DNA of 64,000 nt from NCBI RefSeq assembly GCF_026013565.1, contig NZ_JAPDOB010000002.1, positions 434,001-498,000 of the forward strand. Reading direction: 5' to 3'. A program made the translations under genes and the position numbers. Numbering within the stretch: position 1 is the stretch's first letter; each line of letters opens with the position of its first letter. Below, in pieces: positions 10,752 to 17,361 of this stretch. This DNA comes from Sphingomonas arvum (lineage in GTDB: Bacteria > Pseudomonadota > Alphaproteobacteria > Sphingomonadales > Sphingomonadaceae). The notes below the pieces were generated by a model. That model did no database searches. It saw nothing but the letters and a program-made list of their open reading frames with translations, and was not told the origin of the DNA.

Positions 10752-13214
10752 CTAGCTCGGCTTGAGCTCATCCACTTCGGCGATCTTGGCCGCCAACTCT
10801 TCCTCCCGGAAGGGCTTGACCAGCCGCACAAGGTCCGGCGCCACGCCGTCTGCTTCAGCATATCCGGACACGAGGAGAACCTTCAGGTCGGGGTCGTTAG
10901 CTCGCGCCAGCCGCGCCAGCTCGCTTCCATTCATGCCGGGCATCAGATGATCGGTGACAAGCAAGTCGATGCTTCCGCTTTCGCGCAAGAAAGGTAGCGC
11001 TTCCGCAGCGGACGCAGCCTCGACGACCGTGTAGCCCAGTTGAGCCAACATATGGGCCGTGCTGACCCGCACCAGCTCCTCGTCGTCAACCAGCAGCGCT
11101 CGGCCGCCGGTTGACCGCACCGGTTCCGCTTCGGGTTTCGTTGCGACCTGCATCTGTGCAGCGCTTGTGGCTGGCAGCCATACTTCAACATTGGTTCCCA
11201 CCCCGGGCGCACTCTCGATCGTCAGCACACCTCCAAGCTGCGAGGCGAGCCCGTGCACCATCGAGAGGCCCAAGCCGGTGCCCTGACCCACACCCTTCGT
11301 AGAGAAGAAGGGCTCGATCGCTCGCTCCCGAGTAGGCGCGTCCATGCCGTTTCCTGTGTCAGATACCGAAAGGCAGATGTAGCGACCCGGCGCCAGTCCG
11401 GGCGGATACGGTCGGTCTGGTCCATGCTCGTTCACCGAGAGACGAAGCACGCCTCCGTCCGGCATCGCGTCTCGAGCATTCACACACAGGTTGAGCACCG
11501 CCATTTCGATCTGGTTGGCATCAGCAATGGCTGGTGGGAGAGCTTCACTGATCTCGACTTTGACTTTGATCTGCGGACCGCTGGTGCTGGCAATCAGATT
11601 GACCATGCCCTCAACGAGATCCCCGACTTCAACGGGTCTCGGCTGCAGCGGTTGCCGCCGCGCGAAGGCGAGTAGTCTTTGCACCAGAACACGCGCCCGT
11701 TCGGCCGATTGGAGGGCGCCATCGATCAAACGGCGTTCCCGTTCGTCTCCGACTTGCTTTCGTTGCAGAAGATCGAGCGAGCCGATGATGGGACTGAGCA
11801 GATTGTTAAAATCGTGCGCCACGCCGCCGGTGAGCGCGCCCATGGCTTCCATCTTCTGACTCTGGCGAAGCTGCTCGTGAGCCCGCTCCAGCTCGGCGGT
11901 GCGCTCAGCAACTCGCTGCTCAAGCGTGTTGTTGAGCTCCCGCAGGGATTCCTCAGCGCGCTTCCGTTCGGTGATATCTACTTGAATGCCGTCCCAGACC
12001 ACCGTTCCATCGGGCTGGGGCCGTGGTTCGGATCGCAGATGTGCCCAGCGCACCTCGCCGTTCGCATGATGAAAACGCACCTCGATCTCGAAACGCGAGC
12101 AGGTCTGGATGGCCTGCGCCGACGCTAGAAGGAACCGCTCTCGATCTTCCTCGACGAGCATCTGGTAGGGCAGCGTGGGGTCCCCCATCACCTGCTCCAC
12201 GGTCAGCCCGCTCATCCGCTCATGGCTTTGCGAAAGATAGGTGAAGCGGCGATCGGAGCCGTCAGCATTGCCCGACATCTGGTAGACAGAGCCGCCTGGC
12301 AGGTTGTCAGTCAGGGCGCGCAGCCGCGCCTCGCTCTCCCGCAAGGCCTCCACGGCGGAATGCTGGGCCGTGACATCATGACCTTCGACGAAGATGCCGG
12401 TAACCTGCCCACTTCCGTCGGTCAGCGGCTCATAGATGAAATCGAGTAGGCGCTCCTGGAGTGCCTCGCCGACGTCTGACCCGATGCGGATTGGCACTCG
12501 CTCCGCGACAAACCGCTGACCACTGCGGAAGACCGTGTCGAGTAGGCTGAAGAATTCCTGTTCTTGCAATTCGGGAAAGACGTCCCGAACGGTGTTGCCG
12601 ACATACTCGCGCTCGCCGAATAGCCGCTTGTAGGTTGCGTTGACGAATTCAAACTCGTGGTCGGGTCCACCCAGGATGGTGATAAACCCTGGCGCCTGCT
12701 CGAACATGCGAGCCAGCCGTTTGCGCTCTTCCTCCTGCTGTCCTCGCAGGAGGACCGCTTCAGTCGTTTCAGTGCAGGTGCAGAACATGCCGGCAACCTG
12801 TCCATCGTCGTCGAAGACGGGCGAGTAGGAGAAGGTAAACCAGGTCTGCTCGTCGTAGCCCCGGCGGTTCATCAGAAGCGGCAAGTCTTCGCGGAAGCTT
12901 GCCTCGCCCGCCAATGCGGCGTTGATCAGTGGCGAGATGTCGGGCCAGATTTCGGCCCAGATGTCCCGGAACGGTCTGCCCAGCGCTTCGGGATGCTTCG
13001 ATCCGAGTACCTGGGCGTATGGATCATTGTAAAGGAAGGCGAGTTCGGGTCCCCACGCGACGAACATCGGAAAGCGGGAATTGAGCAGCAATGCGACGAT
13101 GGCCCGCAAGGACGCGGGCCATCGCTCGGGCGGTCCGAGTGAGGAAGACGACCAATCGTGATTACGCATCAGCGCTCCCATCACGCCGCGAGCAAATAGA
13201 TGGTTTGAGCTCAT
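10752..13214 (-). CDS. Hybrid PAS sensor histidine kinase with C-terminal receiver
   Basis: The product is 820 residues from the ATG at 13214, preceded by AGGA about 6 bases upstream; the frame is open further up but that part looks non-coding. At least three PAS-like domains occur in series: WGPELAFLYNDPYAQVLG, then FVNATYKRLFGEREYVG, then a PAS/PAC pair ending VDITERKRAEE. A coiled coil leads to the H box GGVAHDFNNLLSPIIG. The ATP domain shows VLNLCVNARDAMPDGG and GTGLGLSMVHGL. The receiver has LLVDDEE and phospho-Asp near residue 756 (LVTDHLMPG). No membrane segment is visible, so the stimulus is probably cytoplasmic, possibly light or redox. Confidence 0.9.
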   Translation of the reverse strand: MSSNHLFARGVMGALMRNHDWSSSSLGPPERWPASLRAIVALLLNSRFPMFVAWGPELAFLYNDPYAQVLGSKHPEALGRPFRDIWAEIWPDISPLINAALAGEASFREDLPLLMNRRGYDEQTWFTFSYSPVFDDDGQVAGMFCTCTETTEAVLLRGQQEEERKRLARMFEQAPGFITILGGPDHEFEFVNATYKRLFGEREYVGNTVRDVFPELQEQEFFSLLDTVFRSGQRFVAERVPIRIGSDVGEALQERLLDFIYEPLTDGSGQVTGIFVEGHDVTAQHSAVEALRESEARLRALTDNLPGGSVYQMSGNADGSDRRFTYLSQSHERMSGLTVEQVMGDPTLPYQMLVEEDRERFLLASAQAIQTCSRFEIEVRFHHANGEVRWAHLRSEPRPQPDGTVVWDGIQVDITERKRAEESLRELNNTLEQRVAERTAELERAHEQLRQSQKMEAMGALTGGVAHDFNNLLSPIIGSLDLLQRKQVGDERERRLIDGALQSAERARVLVQRLLAFARRQPLQPRPVEVGDLVEGMVNLIASTSGPQIKVKVEISEALPPAIADANQIEMAVLNLCVNARDAMPDGGVLRLSVNEHGPDRPYPPGLAPGRYICLSVSDTGNGMDAPTRERAIEPFFSTKGVGQGTGLGLSMVHGLASQLGGVLTIESAPGVGTNVEVWLPATSAAQMQVATKPEAEPVRSTGGRALLVDDEELVRVSTAHMLAQLGYTVVEAASAAEALPFLRESGSIDLLVTDHLMPGMNGSELARLARANDPDLKVLLVSGYAEADGVAPDLVRLVKPFREEELAAKIAEVDELKPS

Positions 13215-13850
13215 AGGGTTCCTACTTCGGTCACCTTCGCGCTCTGCGCCAAAGTCGTGAAATGGTCCAATCACGCAAGCTCCCAACGCCGCGGTGCGAG
13301 CGCAGGTGGGCCAGTCGCCTTCAGCGGTGATGCTATTCCTCGCTTCAGGTGGAGAACTGTTGCGTCGAAGCGGGGCTTTTCCGGGCACGGCGCGAGCAGA
13401 CGCGATAGTTACCTAATGGATGAAGTTGTCCCGCGGATTGCGGCCCGAACAGCCACCCGGAGTCGCACTCGGATCCTTGGCACCGCCACTGGCCGGCAGC
13501 CGCAGGCTCACGCAAGCATAGCACTCGGAGCCACGGCTTTCATCATTGTTGCCCGCCCGGAACGGGAGCGCCCTTGGAGCGTAGTACGGGCACGAGACGG
13601 ACGCAGGTGGCACCCTGCGTGGCTTCCCCCGGCGCCCATCCCCGGGAACACTCCAGCGACCCGCCAGGGAGGGCGGAGACCGAAGCAGAGATCAAGCCCG
13701 CTTCGGGGTCGCTGAAGTCGTTCAGGCGCTTTTTCTATGATGACGTATCCGGCGCAGCAATGCGTGGGCAAGGTACGGCCGATCACGGGTCCTTGGTCCT
13801 ATGCCTTGCGGTATAATACCGAACCTTGTCGTCCGGCTTGCAGTGCCGCT
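13215..13850. other. Non-coding gap upstream of the hybrid kinase gene
   Basis: About 635 bases with only short, unconvincing frames on both strands. A 13-base near-palindrome around TATAAT (13809-13821, arms CGGTAT/ATACCG) stands out in this GC-rich DNA and could be a -10 element or operator. No matching -35 box at normal spacing was found. Otherwise nothing was recognised. Confidence 0.35.
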
Positions 13851-14153
13851 CTAGTCCGGTTGCACGGACAGACGGTGCTCCCGCTCATAACGGAGCACCT
13901 CATCCTCGTGCACGCGCAGGTGCCGGCCGCCGATCCGTCGTCCGACCAGTCGCCGCGTCCTGATCTCCTCGACGATGTAGTCCTGACTGACGCCCCATCG
14001 CTGAGCCAGGCGGGACACGGAATATTCGTGAGGCTGTTGCGCTTCTCGCATGACACGGCCCGCTTCGTTTTCCCCATCGGGAATAACCGTGGCGCTGCCG
14101 GCAGGTCCAGCGGTCCTCACCTCAAGCTTCTCGAGATCAAGGGAGACCACCAC
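13851..14153 (-). CDS. Small helix-turn-helix (excisionase/MerR-like) DNA-binding protein
   Basis: A 100-residue protein from a GTG at 14153. Residues about 44-92 (YSVSRLAQRWGVSQDYIVEE, then LVGRRIGGRHLRVHEDEVLR) match the winged helix-turn-helix fold of excisionase-family proteins, including the characteristic R-I-G-G-R-H-L-R wing. An ATG at 14051 would give a 67-residue protein closer to the usual family length and would leave room for a divergent promoter, so the start is uncertain. The fusion gene begins on the other strand 2 bases away, which makes local regulation plausible. No integrase or phage gene accompanies it. Confidence 0.7.
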   Translation of the reverse strand: MVVSLDLEKLEVRTAGPAGSATVIPDGENEAGRVMREAQQPHEYSVSRLAQRWGVSQDYIVEEIRTRRLVGRRIGGRHLRVHEDEVLRYEREHRLSVQPD

Positions 14154-14155
14154 GA

Positions 14156-16612
14156 GTGTCCGTTGGATTGACTCACGTCATGGCGATCAAAAAGGTCAGT
14201 TCGCCGGATTACCTTCGAGCTCTGTTCGCAGCTTGGCGCGCGGGCGACGCCGTGATGCCGCTCAACGATCTGAGCGAGACTGACGTGCCTGGGACGCTGG
14301 TTCAGCAGCGATTGACCGTGCTGGAAGGCGGCGGCTGGTTCGACGACCAGATCAGCCTGGCAGATGACGGCACCCCAGCTCTGGTCAGCTTCACGTCAGG
14401 CACCACCGGCAAGCCCAAGGCTATCTTGCTCAGCCGGGGAGCGCTCGGCGATGTCACTCAGCGTCTCATTGACGTATCCGGCCTGGACCATTCGGTACGT
14501 GAATACGTCGGTGTTCCGGTGACCTATTCGTTTGGATTGGGTCGGGCGCGCGCGGTCGCGGCAGTGGGTGGACGTAGCTTCCTGCCCGCCAAGGGCTTTC
14601 GCCCGAGCGAGCTTGCCGAGATGCTCAGCAACGGTGCAATGAACGCGTTCTCCGCAGTTCCGACCATGCTCCGTCTGGTGCTGGCGCAGGACCATCTGTT
14701 CCGCGAGTGCGGCCGGAATCTGCGCTGGCTCGAGATCGGTAGCCAGCCGATGAGCCCGGAAGAGAAGCGGGCCATCCGCCGGTTGTTCCCCGAGGCCCGG
14801 ATCGTCCAGCACTATGGTCTGACGGAAGCCTCGCGCTCGACATTTCTGGACATCAGCGCTGCCGACTACGTGGAGATGGACAGCGTGGGCCGCCCGAACG
14901 GATCGGTGGAGGTGCGGGTCGATGCAGATGACCGTATCTGCATCCGCGGTCCGCACCTGGCGAGCGGCGAGATTACGGCCGACGGGCTGGTCAGCTTGAC
15001 GGACGATGAAGGCTGGCTGCGGACTGGCGACCTCGGCGTCATCGATGCGGGCGGAAGCCTCCACTACCAGGGCCGGGCGGACAACCTCATCAACGTCGGC
15101 GGCTTGAAGGTTCCGCTGGAATTGTTCGAGCAGCGCCTGCTCGACAGGGTCACCGCCGAGCAGGGAAGCGTCGCCGTGGCATCCCGCAGCGACCCGTTGC
15201 GAGGGCAGGCCATCGTGCTCGCATACGAGCCGGGGGCCGATCTTCGCATACTGCGAGACAAGGCGGTGGAGGTCGCCCACGATTTCGGCCTGAGCGCCGC
15301 GGACTTCTTGCTCGTCGAGGTGGCGGCGATTCCAAGGACAGACACCGGTAAGGTCCGCAGAAACGAGCTCTCCCAGCTAGCGCCGGATCTCGGCGGCCGC
15401 ACCGCTCCACCTGCTCGAAAGTCCGGCGGAGCCATCTCCAGCCGACTTGCCGAGCTGCTGAACCGTGAAGCCATCGACCCGAGCCTCAGCTATGTCGAAC
15501 TGGGCGGCGACTCTCTGACATTCGTGCAAGTGTCGATGTTGCTCGAAGAGGAACTTGGTGAGCTGCCCGACGACTGGGAACTGCTACCCGTAAGTCAGCT
15601 GGATGCACTCACCGCCGGGCACAAAGCCACCGTGCCGACGGGGGCAACGATGGACACCCAGATCGCTTTACGAGCCCTGGCCATCATCGGCGTGGTCCTT
15701 AACCATACCACGGAAGCTCAGATTGGCGGTGGTGCCTACCTGCTGCTCGTGCTCGCTGGCGCCCTGTTTGCCCGCTTCCAATACGGTCGGCTGATATCCG
15801 GCGACATGCTGCGCGGGTTTGCGCCATTCCTGGTACGGCTGCTGGGTACCTATTATCTGATCTTGGCAGGTTACCAGTTTCTGCGCGGCGACGTAGACTG
15901 GCGCCGATGGGCGCTGATCGGCAACTTCTTCCCGGACCTGCAAGCGCAGCATAGCCTGCTCCCGTTCTTTTGGTTCATCGTTGCCTTCGTCCAGCTGGTG
16001 CTCCTGTTCACTCTCCCCTTCGCTGTTGCAGGCTTCCGGCGGCGGATGAGCGAGCATCCGTGGCGAGCCGGATTCGCCCTGACGGTCGCCGGCTTCGCCG
16101 TGGCTGTGATTAGCCGCTTGGCCGTCCATTTCTTCGCTCCCAGCCTAGCGCTGGAGGAAAATGGGCACTTCACGACCCGCACGCCGATGTTCCTGTTCTA
16201 CCTGTTCGCCTTCGGCTGGACTCTCCAGTTCACCCGAACTCGCAAGCAGAAGCTGGTGATGTCAGCTGCCACCTTCGTGATGTTTCCCCTGATCGGCGTC
16301 CTGCCGTATGCAGTATGGCTGATACTCGGCAGCCTCGCCGTGATCTGGATCCCGCGCGTGCCCGTACCCAGGCACCTCAAGCGCCTCATTGGCGCCGTTG
16401 CCGGTGCCACCTTCTATATATTCCTCGTGCACATGTTCCCCGTCCATGTGGTCATGGGCGTATGGCCGAGCAGAGGTTCGCCGCTGCCGAACCTCCTGGC
16501 TGTCACCTTCGCCATTGCTCTGGGACTGTTGGTGGCGTTCGTCGTTGACCGGACGGTCAGACGAGTTCGGTCCGTTGCGCCAAGCTACCAACGGATCGAA
16601 CCAGCCGAATGA
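14156..16612 (+). CDS. Adenylating enzyme-acyl carrier-membrane acyltransferase (AT3) fusion
   Basis: An 818-residue single chain holds three recognisable parts. (1) A shortened ANL adenylation domain (about 1-410) has FTSGTTGKPK near 79, YGLTEAS near 220, RTGDLG near 290, GRADNLINVGGLKV near 305 and the catalytic-Lys motif TDTGKVRR near 395; only about 75 residues precede the first motif where 150 or more are usual. (2) A carrier domain has the phosphopantetheine site LGGDSLTFVQ near 446. (3) An acyltransferase-3 membrane domain (about 500-800) carries the family's R-x10-H motif in ALRALAIIGVVLNH and roughly ten hydrophobic segments. The start may be GTG 14156 or ATG 14180. The layout suggests activation, tethering and transfer of an acyl or aminoacyl group across the membrane in one protein. 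The substrate and acceptor are unknown. Confidence 0.85.
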   Translation: MSVGLTHVMAIKKVSSPDYLRALFAAWRAGDAVMPLNDLSETDVPGTLVQQRLTVLEGGGWFDDQISLADDGTPALVSFTSGTTGKPKAILLSRGALGDVTQRLIDVSGLDHSVREYVGVPVTYSFGLGRARAVAAVGGRSFLPAKGFRPSELAEMLSNGAMNAFSAVPTMLRLVLAQDHLFRECGRNLRWLEIGSQPMSPEEKRAIRRLFPEARIVQHYGLTEASRSTFLDISAADYVEMDSVGRPNGSVEVRVDADDRICIRGPHLASGEITADGLVSLTDDEGWLRTGDLGVIDAGGSLHYQGRADNLINVGGLKVPLELFEQRLLDRVTAEQGSVAVASRSDPLRGQAIVLAYEPGADLRILRDKAVEVAHDFGLSAADFLLVEVAAIPRTDTGKVRRNELSQLAPDLGGRTAPPARKSGGAISSRLAELLNREAIDPSLSYVELGGDSLTFVQVSMLLEEELGELPDDWELLPVSQLDALTAGHKATVPTGATMDTQIALRALAIIGVVLNHTTEAQIGGGAYLLLVLAGALFARFQYGRLISGDMLRGFAPFLVRLLGTYYLILAGYQFLRGDVDWRRWALIGNFFPDLQAQHSLLPFFWFIVAFVQLVLLFTLPFAVAGFRRRMSEHPWRAGFALTVAGFAVAVISRLAVHFFAPSLALEENGHFTTRTPMFLFYLFAFGWTLQFTRTRKQKLVMSAATFVMFPLIGVLPYAVWLILGSLAVIWIPRVPVPRHLKRLIGAVAGATFYIFLVHMFPVHVVMGVWPSRGSPLPNLLAVTFAIALGLLVAFVVDRTVRRVRSVAPSYQRIEPAE

Positions 16613-16902
16613 TCGAGTTACCCGCTTGCCATCCGACAACACGTTGAGGCGGATGCAGGATCTGCTTAGCAGCTGAACCAATGACTGCTTACGAGTGCCC
16701 GCGTGAACAACCGCGCCGTTCAAGGAAGCGCTTGGCTGACGGGTCGCAATGGCTGGCAAGCAGACATTTCGGCCAAAGGACACGGGTTTATTGCTTTCCC
16801 GATCGGGTCCGACCCGCTGCGCGTCGGCAAGCTGTGGGCGCACTGAGCGGCGTCACGCTGCCCAAGCTTTCGGATGACTTCCATGTGTGCCATCCCGACG
16901 GG

Positions 16903-17361
16903 GTGCTTACCCAGAAGTCACGCTATGCTCTGCGTTCGCTGCTCTACCTGGTGGAAGAGGGCGCCGGAGCGCCTATTCAGCTCGCCCGCATTGCGGACAC
17001 GCAGAAGATCCCGCCGAAGTACCTGGAGCTCATCATGCTGGAGCTGAAGAAGGCCGGCATCGTGCGCAGTACGAGGGGCCCGCGGGGCGGCTACGTCCTG
17101 ACCCGATCCCCGCATGAGATCTCGTTCGGGGCAATCGTGCGGGCGTTGGAAGGACCGATCGCACTGATCAGCTGCGCAAGCGAGAATTTCTACGCTCCCT
17201 GCGGTGACTGCCACGATGAAGTTAACTGCGCGATCCGGCGGGCCTTCATGGTGGTGCGGGACGAAACGACTCGCGTCCTGGACTCGATCTCGCTTTCCAA
17301 GGGGGCGGACTGGGAAGGCAGGCTTCCCGCGTCGGACGGTTCGGAAATCAAGCCGGGGTGA
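16903..17361 (+). CDS. Rrf2-family transcriptional regulator with cysteine cluster
   Basis: A 152-residue protein is read from the GTG at 16903, where family similarity begins (VLTQKSRYALRSLLYL). The frame is open from 16681 but the upstream part has no family character. The winged-helix region contains IPPKYLELIMLELKKAGIV and STRGPRGGYVL. Four cysteines follow at about 91, 100, 103 and 109 (CASENFYAPCGDC, then HDEVNC), the position where Rrf2 proteins bind an Fe-S cluster. It lies 70 bases before the sulfate-binding protein gene on the same strand. Control of sulfate uptake in response to sulfur or redox state is inferred from position. Confidence 0.8.
   Translation: MLTQKSRYALRSLLYLVEEGAGAPIQLARIADTQKIPPKYLELIMLELKKAGIVRSTRGPRGGYVLTRSPHEISFGAIVRALEGPIALISCASENFYAPCGDCHDEVNCAIRRAFMVVRDETTRVLDSISLSKGADWEGRLPASDGSEIKPG

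Follow-up and report, generated by a model that had tools for sequence, protein, structure and literature searches.

A short ligase, a carrier and an AT3 acyltransferase in one chain of Sphingomonas arvum: a recurrent fusion and a proposed Dlt-like route of acylation

The fusion gene and its domains

The window, by which we mean the whole 64,000-nucleotide stretch of the Sphingomonas arvum genome that was analysed, encodes on its forward strand at 14156-16612 a single 818-residue chain made of a ligase, a carrier and an AT3 membrane acyltransferase. The gene is one open frame with a GTG start, and a Shine-Dalgarno-like AGGGAG, read by eye, lies on the same strand ten bases 5' of the GTG at 14140-14145. 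The initial annotation had claimed three domains in one uninterrupted chain of this length, and that is what is found, with each domain above its Pfam cut-off. The short ANL (AMP-forming) ligase takes up approximately residues 1-407 (14156-15376), its AMP-binding match (PF00501, E = 8.1e-29) running over residues 68-271 (14357-14968) and covering profile positions 158-382 of 384. The presumed adenylation lysine, Lys399, is encoded at 15350-15352. The carrier domain, with limits that we set ourselves, spans 15428-15625, and PP-binding (PF00550) matches residues 429-472 at 27.8 bits against a cut-off of 20.8. In it the motif LGGDSL, already picked out as the carrier site, gives Ser453 (codon 15512-15514) as the presumed phosphopantetheine site. 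Both Ser453 and Lys399 are invariant in 36/36 aligned rows, window included. Pfam finds no condensation domain in the window protein.

The membrane half comprises residues 491-818 (15626-16609), with Acyl_transf_3 (PF01757) matching residues 504-797 at 41.9 bits against a cut-off of 31; in a whole-genome profile search the same match scores 44.7 bits. A simple hydropathy scan gives 7 strong hydrophobic helices, the ten-helix AT3 fold being the reference. The R-x10-H motif, as given in the available part of PMC9833829, is present as claimed at the first predicted helix (15671-15706), with R506 and H517 ten residues apart and both invariant in the 36 rows, window included. A profile of the AT3 half has no match at E ≤ 0.1 among PDB sequences. 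From NCBIfam, no model reaches its cut-off among the best 25 of 102 matches to the window protein, nor among the best 25 matches to each of five relatives.

The divergent HTH gene and the surroundings

On the reverse strand at 13851-14153 there is a small divergent HTH gene, excisionase-like but under the Pfam cut-offs, with HTH_17 matching at 24 bits against a cut-off of 27. The annotation had placed it 2 bases away from the fusion gene; the small divergent gene is there, but that distance holds only for the longest possible start, and starting at a downstream ATG instead, the HTH gene would be about 100 bases away from the fusion gene. With the start uncertain, and with only two weak matches (E about 0.006-0.007) in 20 congeners, the idea of the HTH gene as a regulator gains no support, and these comparisons do not support its belonging to the fusion system.

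At 16681-17361 lies an Rrf2 ORF for which 9 of 10 congener places match from residues 61-75 and the other from residue 25. Going by these match starts, the ORF is probably annotated too long, and its start may be near 16861-16903. The congener with the most similar Rrf2 is the genome G306 (locus L141), in which Rrf2 and sulfate-transporter genes, both names being our own reading, are separated by about 70 bases from a histidine kinase that is half identical to the kinase of the window. Relative to these two genes, the PAS histidine kinase (10752-13388 in the window) is turned the other way round in G306. In the 19.9 kb of G306 examined there is no match to the HTH or the fusion gene at E ≤ 1e-8, and on this comparison the fusion looks like an accessory gene in the window's genome.

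Relatives and distribution

A search of 298 genomes of the family finds relatives at E ≤ 1e-30 in 22, the window's own among them, and 24 places match in all. Pfam was run on 20 of these places (the window's own, L010, L017 and L024 are left out) and finds the ligase in 20/20 and AT3 at E ≤ 0.1 in 17/20, 10 of them above cut-off. The three places where Pfam finds no AT3 at E ≤ 0.1 are L008, L011 and L019, which iterated profiles put with the divergent or window-type AT3 sets described below. L024 is an unfused ligase. A second collection yielded no relative when scanned with the single window protein, and an alignment-based scan of it found relatives: by tblastn, 144 of 163 pattern-matched stretches encode them, and the 80 loci kept come from Cyanobacteriota, Chlorobiota, Planctomycetota, Thermodesulfobacteriota and Pseudomonadota. 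In the genus itself there are matches in 3 of 31 genomes (E ≤ 1e-20, own included). Among these 31 the full chain is seen only in the window's genome, and the other two matches, in G308 and G313, are partial and cover residues 67-421 and 68-405 only.

The cross-genome search that the initial annotation had proposed returns relatives from 22 of the 298 family genomes and from the 80 kept loci of several phyla. Its refuting case, in which homologues would always be separate proteins joined here by a frameshift, is excluded by the relatives that are likewise fused. As relatives in many genomes have the same layout, neither a frameshift or mis-assembly nor a one-off oddity accounts for the gene, and both are ruled out.

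Two loci are built in a different way. L123 (the same locus as L021), a distant relative from the family, encodes a condensation-adenylation-carrier-AT3 chain of about 1320 aa, with the carrier under the Pfam cut-off. L036:538-6985 holds two ligase-AT3 fusions, one with a short and one with a full-length ligase, flanking a stand-alone AT3 gene.

The shortened ligase and its pocket

The window ligase has the features of the ANL family, namely the PF00501 match, the P-loop, YGxTE, the motif D and R and the C-terminal lysine. What it retains, by residue, is motif A2 (LFAAWRAGDAVMPL), found by alignment with full-length ligases, the P-loop (80-88), YGLTE (220-224), D292, R307 and K399; the usual full N-terminal region with motif A1 is absent. 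In the relatives L100, L103 and L040 the alignment to MenE-type profiles starts at profile positions 64, 67 and 76, and alignment with full-length ligases on the same kind of AT3 (L015, L018, L023) has the short form begin just before motif A2. Together these indicate that the missing part is about the first 60-70 residues and spares the catalytic core. Counted from the first possible start codon, the named loci have their P-loop between residues 75 and 149, in most cases near 80. The annotation had called the ligase shortened and all the more unusual for that. Short it is, but its near relatives are short as well, and by these positions the short ligase is a trait of the family.

Among 80 short ligases there is no variation at S81, G82, G85, D292, R307, K318 or K399, and position 88 is K in 79. 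Residue 84 of the P-loop is E (as in TSGTEG) in 59, T in 19 and Q in 2; the window P-loop (14393-14410) has T there. Of the residues placed in or close to the acid pocket, R130, R227 and F126 are each kept in 80/80, E193 in 80/80 and H219 in 79/80, the last two lying inside the search patterns used to collect the loci. Those patterns, [RH]WLEIGSQ and QHYGLTEA, partly force the invariance of E193, G195, S196, Q197 and H219; the same five are also invariant in nine relatives gathered without them. None of eight full-length ligases in the same alignment has R103, R130, E193 or R227.

An Asp at one position of the adenylation pocket marks loaders of alpha-amino acids. In the alignment with LgrA that position is Gly127, which is Gly in 80/80 short ligases, so an alpha-amino acid is an unlikely substrate. 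R130, E193, H219 and R227 are presumably acid-pocket positions, by PheA numbering, and as charged candidates they suggest, as a hint only, a small polar or dicarboxylic acid. The best solved-structure matches are NRPS chains; of the stand-alone enzymes, the better matches include oxalate- and malonyl-CoA ligases.

Exchange of the transferase half

For comparison of the C-terminal halves we assembled the 80 named loci, 20 neighbourhoods and the window. The neighbourhoods are 20 of the 24 family places, excluding that of the window itself, L010 and two in G143. A simple gene picker recovered the fusion gene in 76/80, in 19/20 and in the window, losing L037, L042, L071, L101 and L122, and three duplicates (L106, L111, L112) were dropped, which leaves 93 loci. 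Iterated profiles sort their C-terminal halves into 63 window-type AT3, 18 divergent AT3, 5 canonical AT3, 4 soluble LbH (hexapeptide) acyltransferases and 3 unlabelled, so that the three AT3 lineages together make up 86 of the 93. The ligase is full-length or incomplete in ten of the 63 window-type loci (L114-L121, L123, L124), and the short ligases accordingly number 83.

The divergent AT3 set is weak in Pfam: of five scanned, L004, L006 and L009 score about 19 bits, and L008 and L011 have no match at E ≤ 0.1. In its alignment R120 never varies and H131 hardly does, with ten residues between them, and a ligase-free sister gene in L089 is above the AT3 cut-off (38.4 bits). Of the LbH type, L053 has Hexapep and L103 is EpsC-like (82 bits against a cut-off of 150), and a hydropathy scan finds no hydrophobic helix in either; L083 and L104 are assigned by profile only. 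Among the unlabelled rows, L084 stops at a contig end, and L088 is in two pieces, the second of which aligns with the divergent AT3 set. The third, L100 of Malonomonas rubra (L100:9986-14007), has the short ligase-carrier followed by one hydrophobic helix and a GDSL/SGNH-like domain, whose matches of 23.7 and 22.2 bits are both below the Pfam cut-offs. An MBOAT gene (68.5 bits) lies 62 bases downstream of this fusion gene, and read from these matches L100 is a bridge, with a layout intermediate between the Dlt and the AT3 arrangements. Each identified partner, whether one of the three AT3 lineages, LbH or SGNH-like/MBOAT, is thus of an acyl-transfer-type family.

A quick tree was made of 88 ligases, leaving out L028, L088, L102, L116 and L119. 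On it the C-terminal label needs 12 changes with the unlabelled rows out and 14 with them, the figure of 12 being the count of one quick tree and not a firm bound, as 27 of its 85 inner branches fall below 80. The starred branches force at least 3 changes for the window-type, 4 for the divergent, 2 for the canonical and 3 for the LbH label. The window ligase falls in a starred set of 11, of which the other 10 are 5 divergent, 4 canonical and 1 LbH. Among its best 14 rows it is 51-56% identical to seven of those ten and 47% to an eighth, and the window AT3, among its own best 14 rows, is at most 35% identical to any other AT3. By this placement the window's C-terminal half is itself a swap. The same short ligase-carrier on different transferases is the strongest evidence for a working donor module.

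Carriers and neighbouring genes

Tandem carriers are found in 5 of the 93 loci (4, 3, 3, 3 and 2 copies). The gene next upstream belongs to our neighbour cluster 27 in four of the five, which is the case at none of the remaining loci; two members of the cluster are typed as TauD dioxygenases. At L080, L084, L085 and L113, which have tandem carriers, this gene lies 9-12 bases upstream; it is TauD-like in both cases where it was typed, and it might oxidise the acyl group on the carrier. A PPTase-cluster gene (cluster 17) is next upstream in 3/93 loci, all Chlorobiota, one member being typed by Pfam as a phosphopantetheinyl transferase. In L089 (L089:9980-13908) a carrier-AT3 gene with no ligase overlaps or abuts the downstream end of the fusion gene, an arrangement that suggests loading in trans.

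The inspection of neighbours that had been proposed also turns up scored polysaccharide gene clusters near 41/93 loci, with at least 2 kinds in 24/93, these being raw counts. By type, any such cluster and at least 2 kinds are found in 21/63 and 11/63 of the window-type loci, 14/18 and 10/18 of the divergent, 3/4 and 2/4 of the LbH, 1/5 and 1/5 of the canonical and 2/3 and 0/3 of the unlabelled. Each neighbour cluster is named from one typed member, and one Wzy cluster is under the Pfam cut-off. Beside the window gene there are no scored glycan gene clusters, and for two glycan families searched in the window's genome all matches are on another contig. The sole PPTase-family match in this genome is an AcpS-like 135-aa ORF, and searches of it, one of them without a positive control, find no Sfp-type PPTase.

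Proposed route and alternatives

We consider it probable that the chain is a one-protein, Dlt-like acylation system, which activates an acid, loads it on its own carrier and hands it to its AT3 domain, probably for a surface glycan. The short ANL domain would use ATP and a small polar acid to form an acyl-adenylate, and the acyl group would then be bound as a thioester to the phosphopantetheine that Ser453 carries in the same chain. The loaded carrier would dock where the C-terminal AT3 domain opens to the cytoplasm, and that domain would take the acyl group across the membrane and place it on a hydroxyl of an acceptor outside the cytoplasm. This acceptor would most likely be a surface polysaccharide or a lipid-linked glycan. 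Directly established are three domains in one frame, conserved motifs, a recurrent fusion and exchange of the transferase half. Beyond them we infer that the carrier is loaded and that it, and not CoA, is the donor, as well as the direction of transfer, the acceptor, the acid and the independence from CoA. The choice of the carrier over CoA is drawn from the fusions, and the transmembrane step from the behaviour of the AT3 family as given in the available part of PMC9833829.

Much of this had been proposed in the initial annotation, in which the protein may charge its own carrier with a small acid or amino acid and pass it, without CoA, to an outward-facing acceptor. The many fusions, the exchange of transferases, the tandem carriers and the PPTase-cluster neighbours argue for the carrier-fed part; the amino acid is the part that fares badly, with Gly127 in 80/80. 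Several observations weigh against the route. The AcpS-like ORF is the sole PPTase match in this genome, though AcpS does dock DltC in the Dlt precedent (PMC9338922, as far as available); no scored glycan cluster lies by the window gene, and only 21/63 window-type AT3 loci have polysaccharide clusters nearby; the divergent lineage is weak in Pfam, at about 19 bits in three of five and with none at E ≤ 0.1 in two; and in reviewed work on AT3 proteins the preferred donor is acyl-CoA and not ACP, in the part of PMC9558356 available.

In another use of the chain, the ligase-carrier would be an NRPS-like loader serving a small molecule or a siderophore, and the AT3 would acylate or release that metabolite in the cytoplasm or during export instead of modifying a surface glycan. 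The 42/63 window-type loci with no scored polysaccharide clusters nearby fit this, as do the NRPS chains among the best solved-structure matches and the condensation-adenylation-carrier-AT3 chain of L021, its carrier under the Pfam cut-off. The window protein has no condensation domain, however, and no Asp where loaders of alpha-amino acids have one, and polysaccharide clusters lie near 14/18 divergent-AT3 and 3/4 LbH forms, which makes the loader unlikely in our estimate.

Whether the carrier takes part at all is a separate matter. The ligase could make acyl-CoA and the AT3 use it like other AT3 proteins, whose tested donors are acyl-CoA according to the available part of PMC9558356, with the fused carrier left as a relic or docking element. 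CoA ligases make up many of the ligase matches, and the solved structures include oxalate- and malonyl-CoA ligases; the searches that found no Sfp-type PPTase in this genome, one of them without a positive control, point the same way. A relic would hardly keep its serine in 36/36 rows or be multiplied in 5/93 loci, and the PPTase-cluster gene next upstream in 3 loci also speaks for a carrier in use, so we regard this as quite improbable. Least credible, and very improbable, is that a ligase lacking some 60-70 residues is too short to work, the AT3 acting alone with a decaying or regulatory N-terminal half; 80 short ligases of several phyla have a similar length and nearly all tested catalytic residues, and five kinds of C-terminal half are joined to them.

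With the carrier-fed, Dlt-like route as the preferred reading, a wider one is possible, and we put it forward as tentative. The short ligase-carrier would be a portable, self-loading donor module that supplies one polar acyl group to AT3, EpsC-like LbH and SGNH plus MBOAT machines in several phyla, on a CoA-independent, Dlt-like principle. That it would be one common acid is suggested by R130, R227, F126, E193 and H219, which are kept whatever the C-terminal partner.

Comparison with known systems

Among AT3 acyltransferases such as OafB and OatA (PF01757), the window protein is alike in its AT3 domain with R-x10-H. In the available parts of PMC9558356, PMC9833829 and PMC12423673, and among the matches listed, the AT3 fusions named are with SGNH, alanine racemase, NRF and unspecified partners in Eukarya, with acyl-CoA as donor, and these parts do not mention "AMP-binding". 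No report of a ligase-carrier-AT3 fusion was recognised in the literature searched, including those three, PMC554113 and PMC9338922, in so far as each was available. A review of the AT3 field has acyl-CoA and not a carrier protein feeding these enzymes (PMC9558356, in the part available), and the fusion, with its repeatedly exchanged transferase half, would let acylation across the membrane from a carrier be tested directly.

Aas (acyl-ACP synthetase with lysophospholipid acyltransferase; PRK06814, PRK08633) likewise has ligase and acyltransferase in one chain, but the PRK06814/PRK08633 match is far below threshold and confined to the ligase part. The Aas acyltransferase is PlsC-type and acts on lipids. 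Epsilon-poly-L-lysine synthetase and PosA-like membrane NRPS have adenylation, carrier and membrane helices in one chain and are not known to have an AT3 domain. The exosortase A system-associated ligase TIGR03098 is the sixth NCBIfam match to the window protein, at 86 bits against a cut-off of 592, and it is not known to be fused to either a carrier or AT3.

A parallel in logic is Dlt, in which the ligase DltA loads the carrier DltC, which feeds the membrane acyltransferase DltB, an MBOAT protein acylating a surface polymer. As proposed here, the window protein is alike in that a ligase would load a carrier feeding a membrane acyltransferase. It is unlike Dlt in having one chain in place of separate DltA, DltB and DltC, AT3 in place of MBOAT, a short ligase, and no alpha-amino-acid Asp, D-alanine being the Dlt substrate. 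An ordered docking of AcpS, DltA and DltB on DltC is described in the available part of PMC9338922. The parts and the Dlt logic are thus already known; new, as far as the literature searched shows, and with sequence databases quite possibly listing the architecture, are the AT3 fusion, its short ligase and the exchangeable transferase half. A job that is usually split among several proteins or fed by CoA is here apparently done by one membrane protein. The fusion ties AT3 to the logic of Dlt and of MBOAT/SGNH, and from it one would expect environmental bacteria to have carrier-derived acyl groups on their surfaces.
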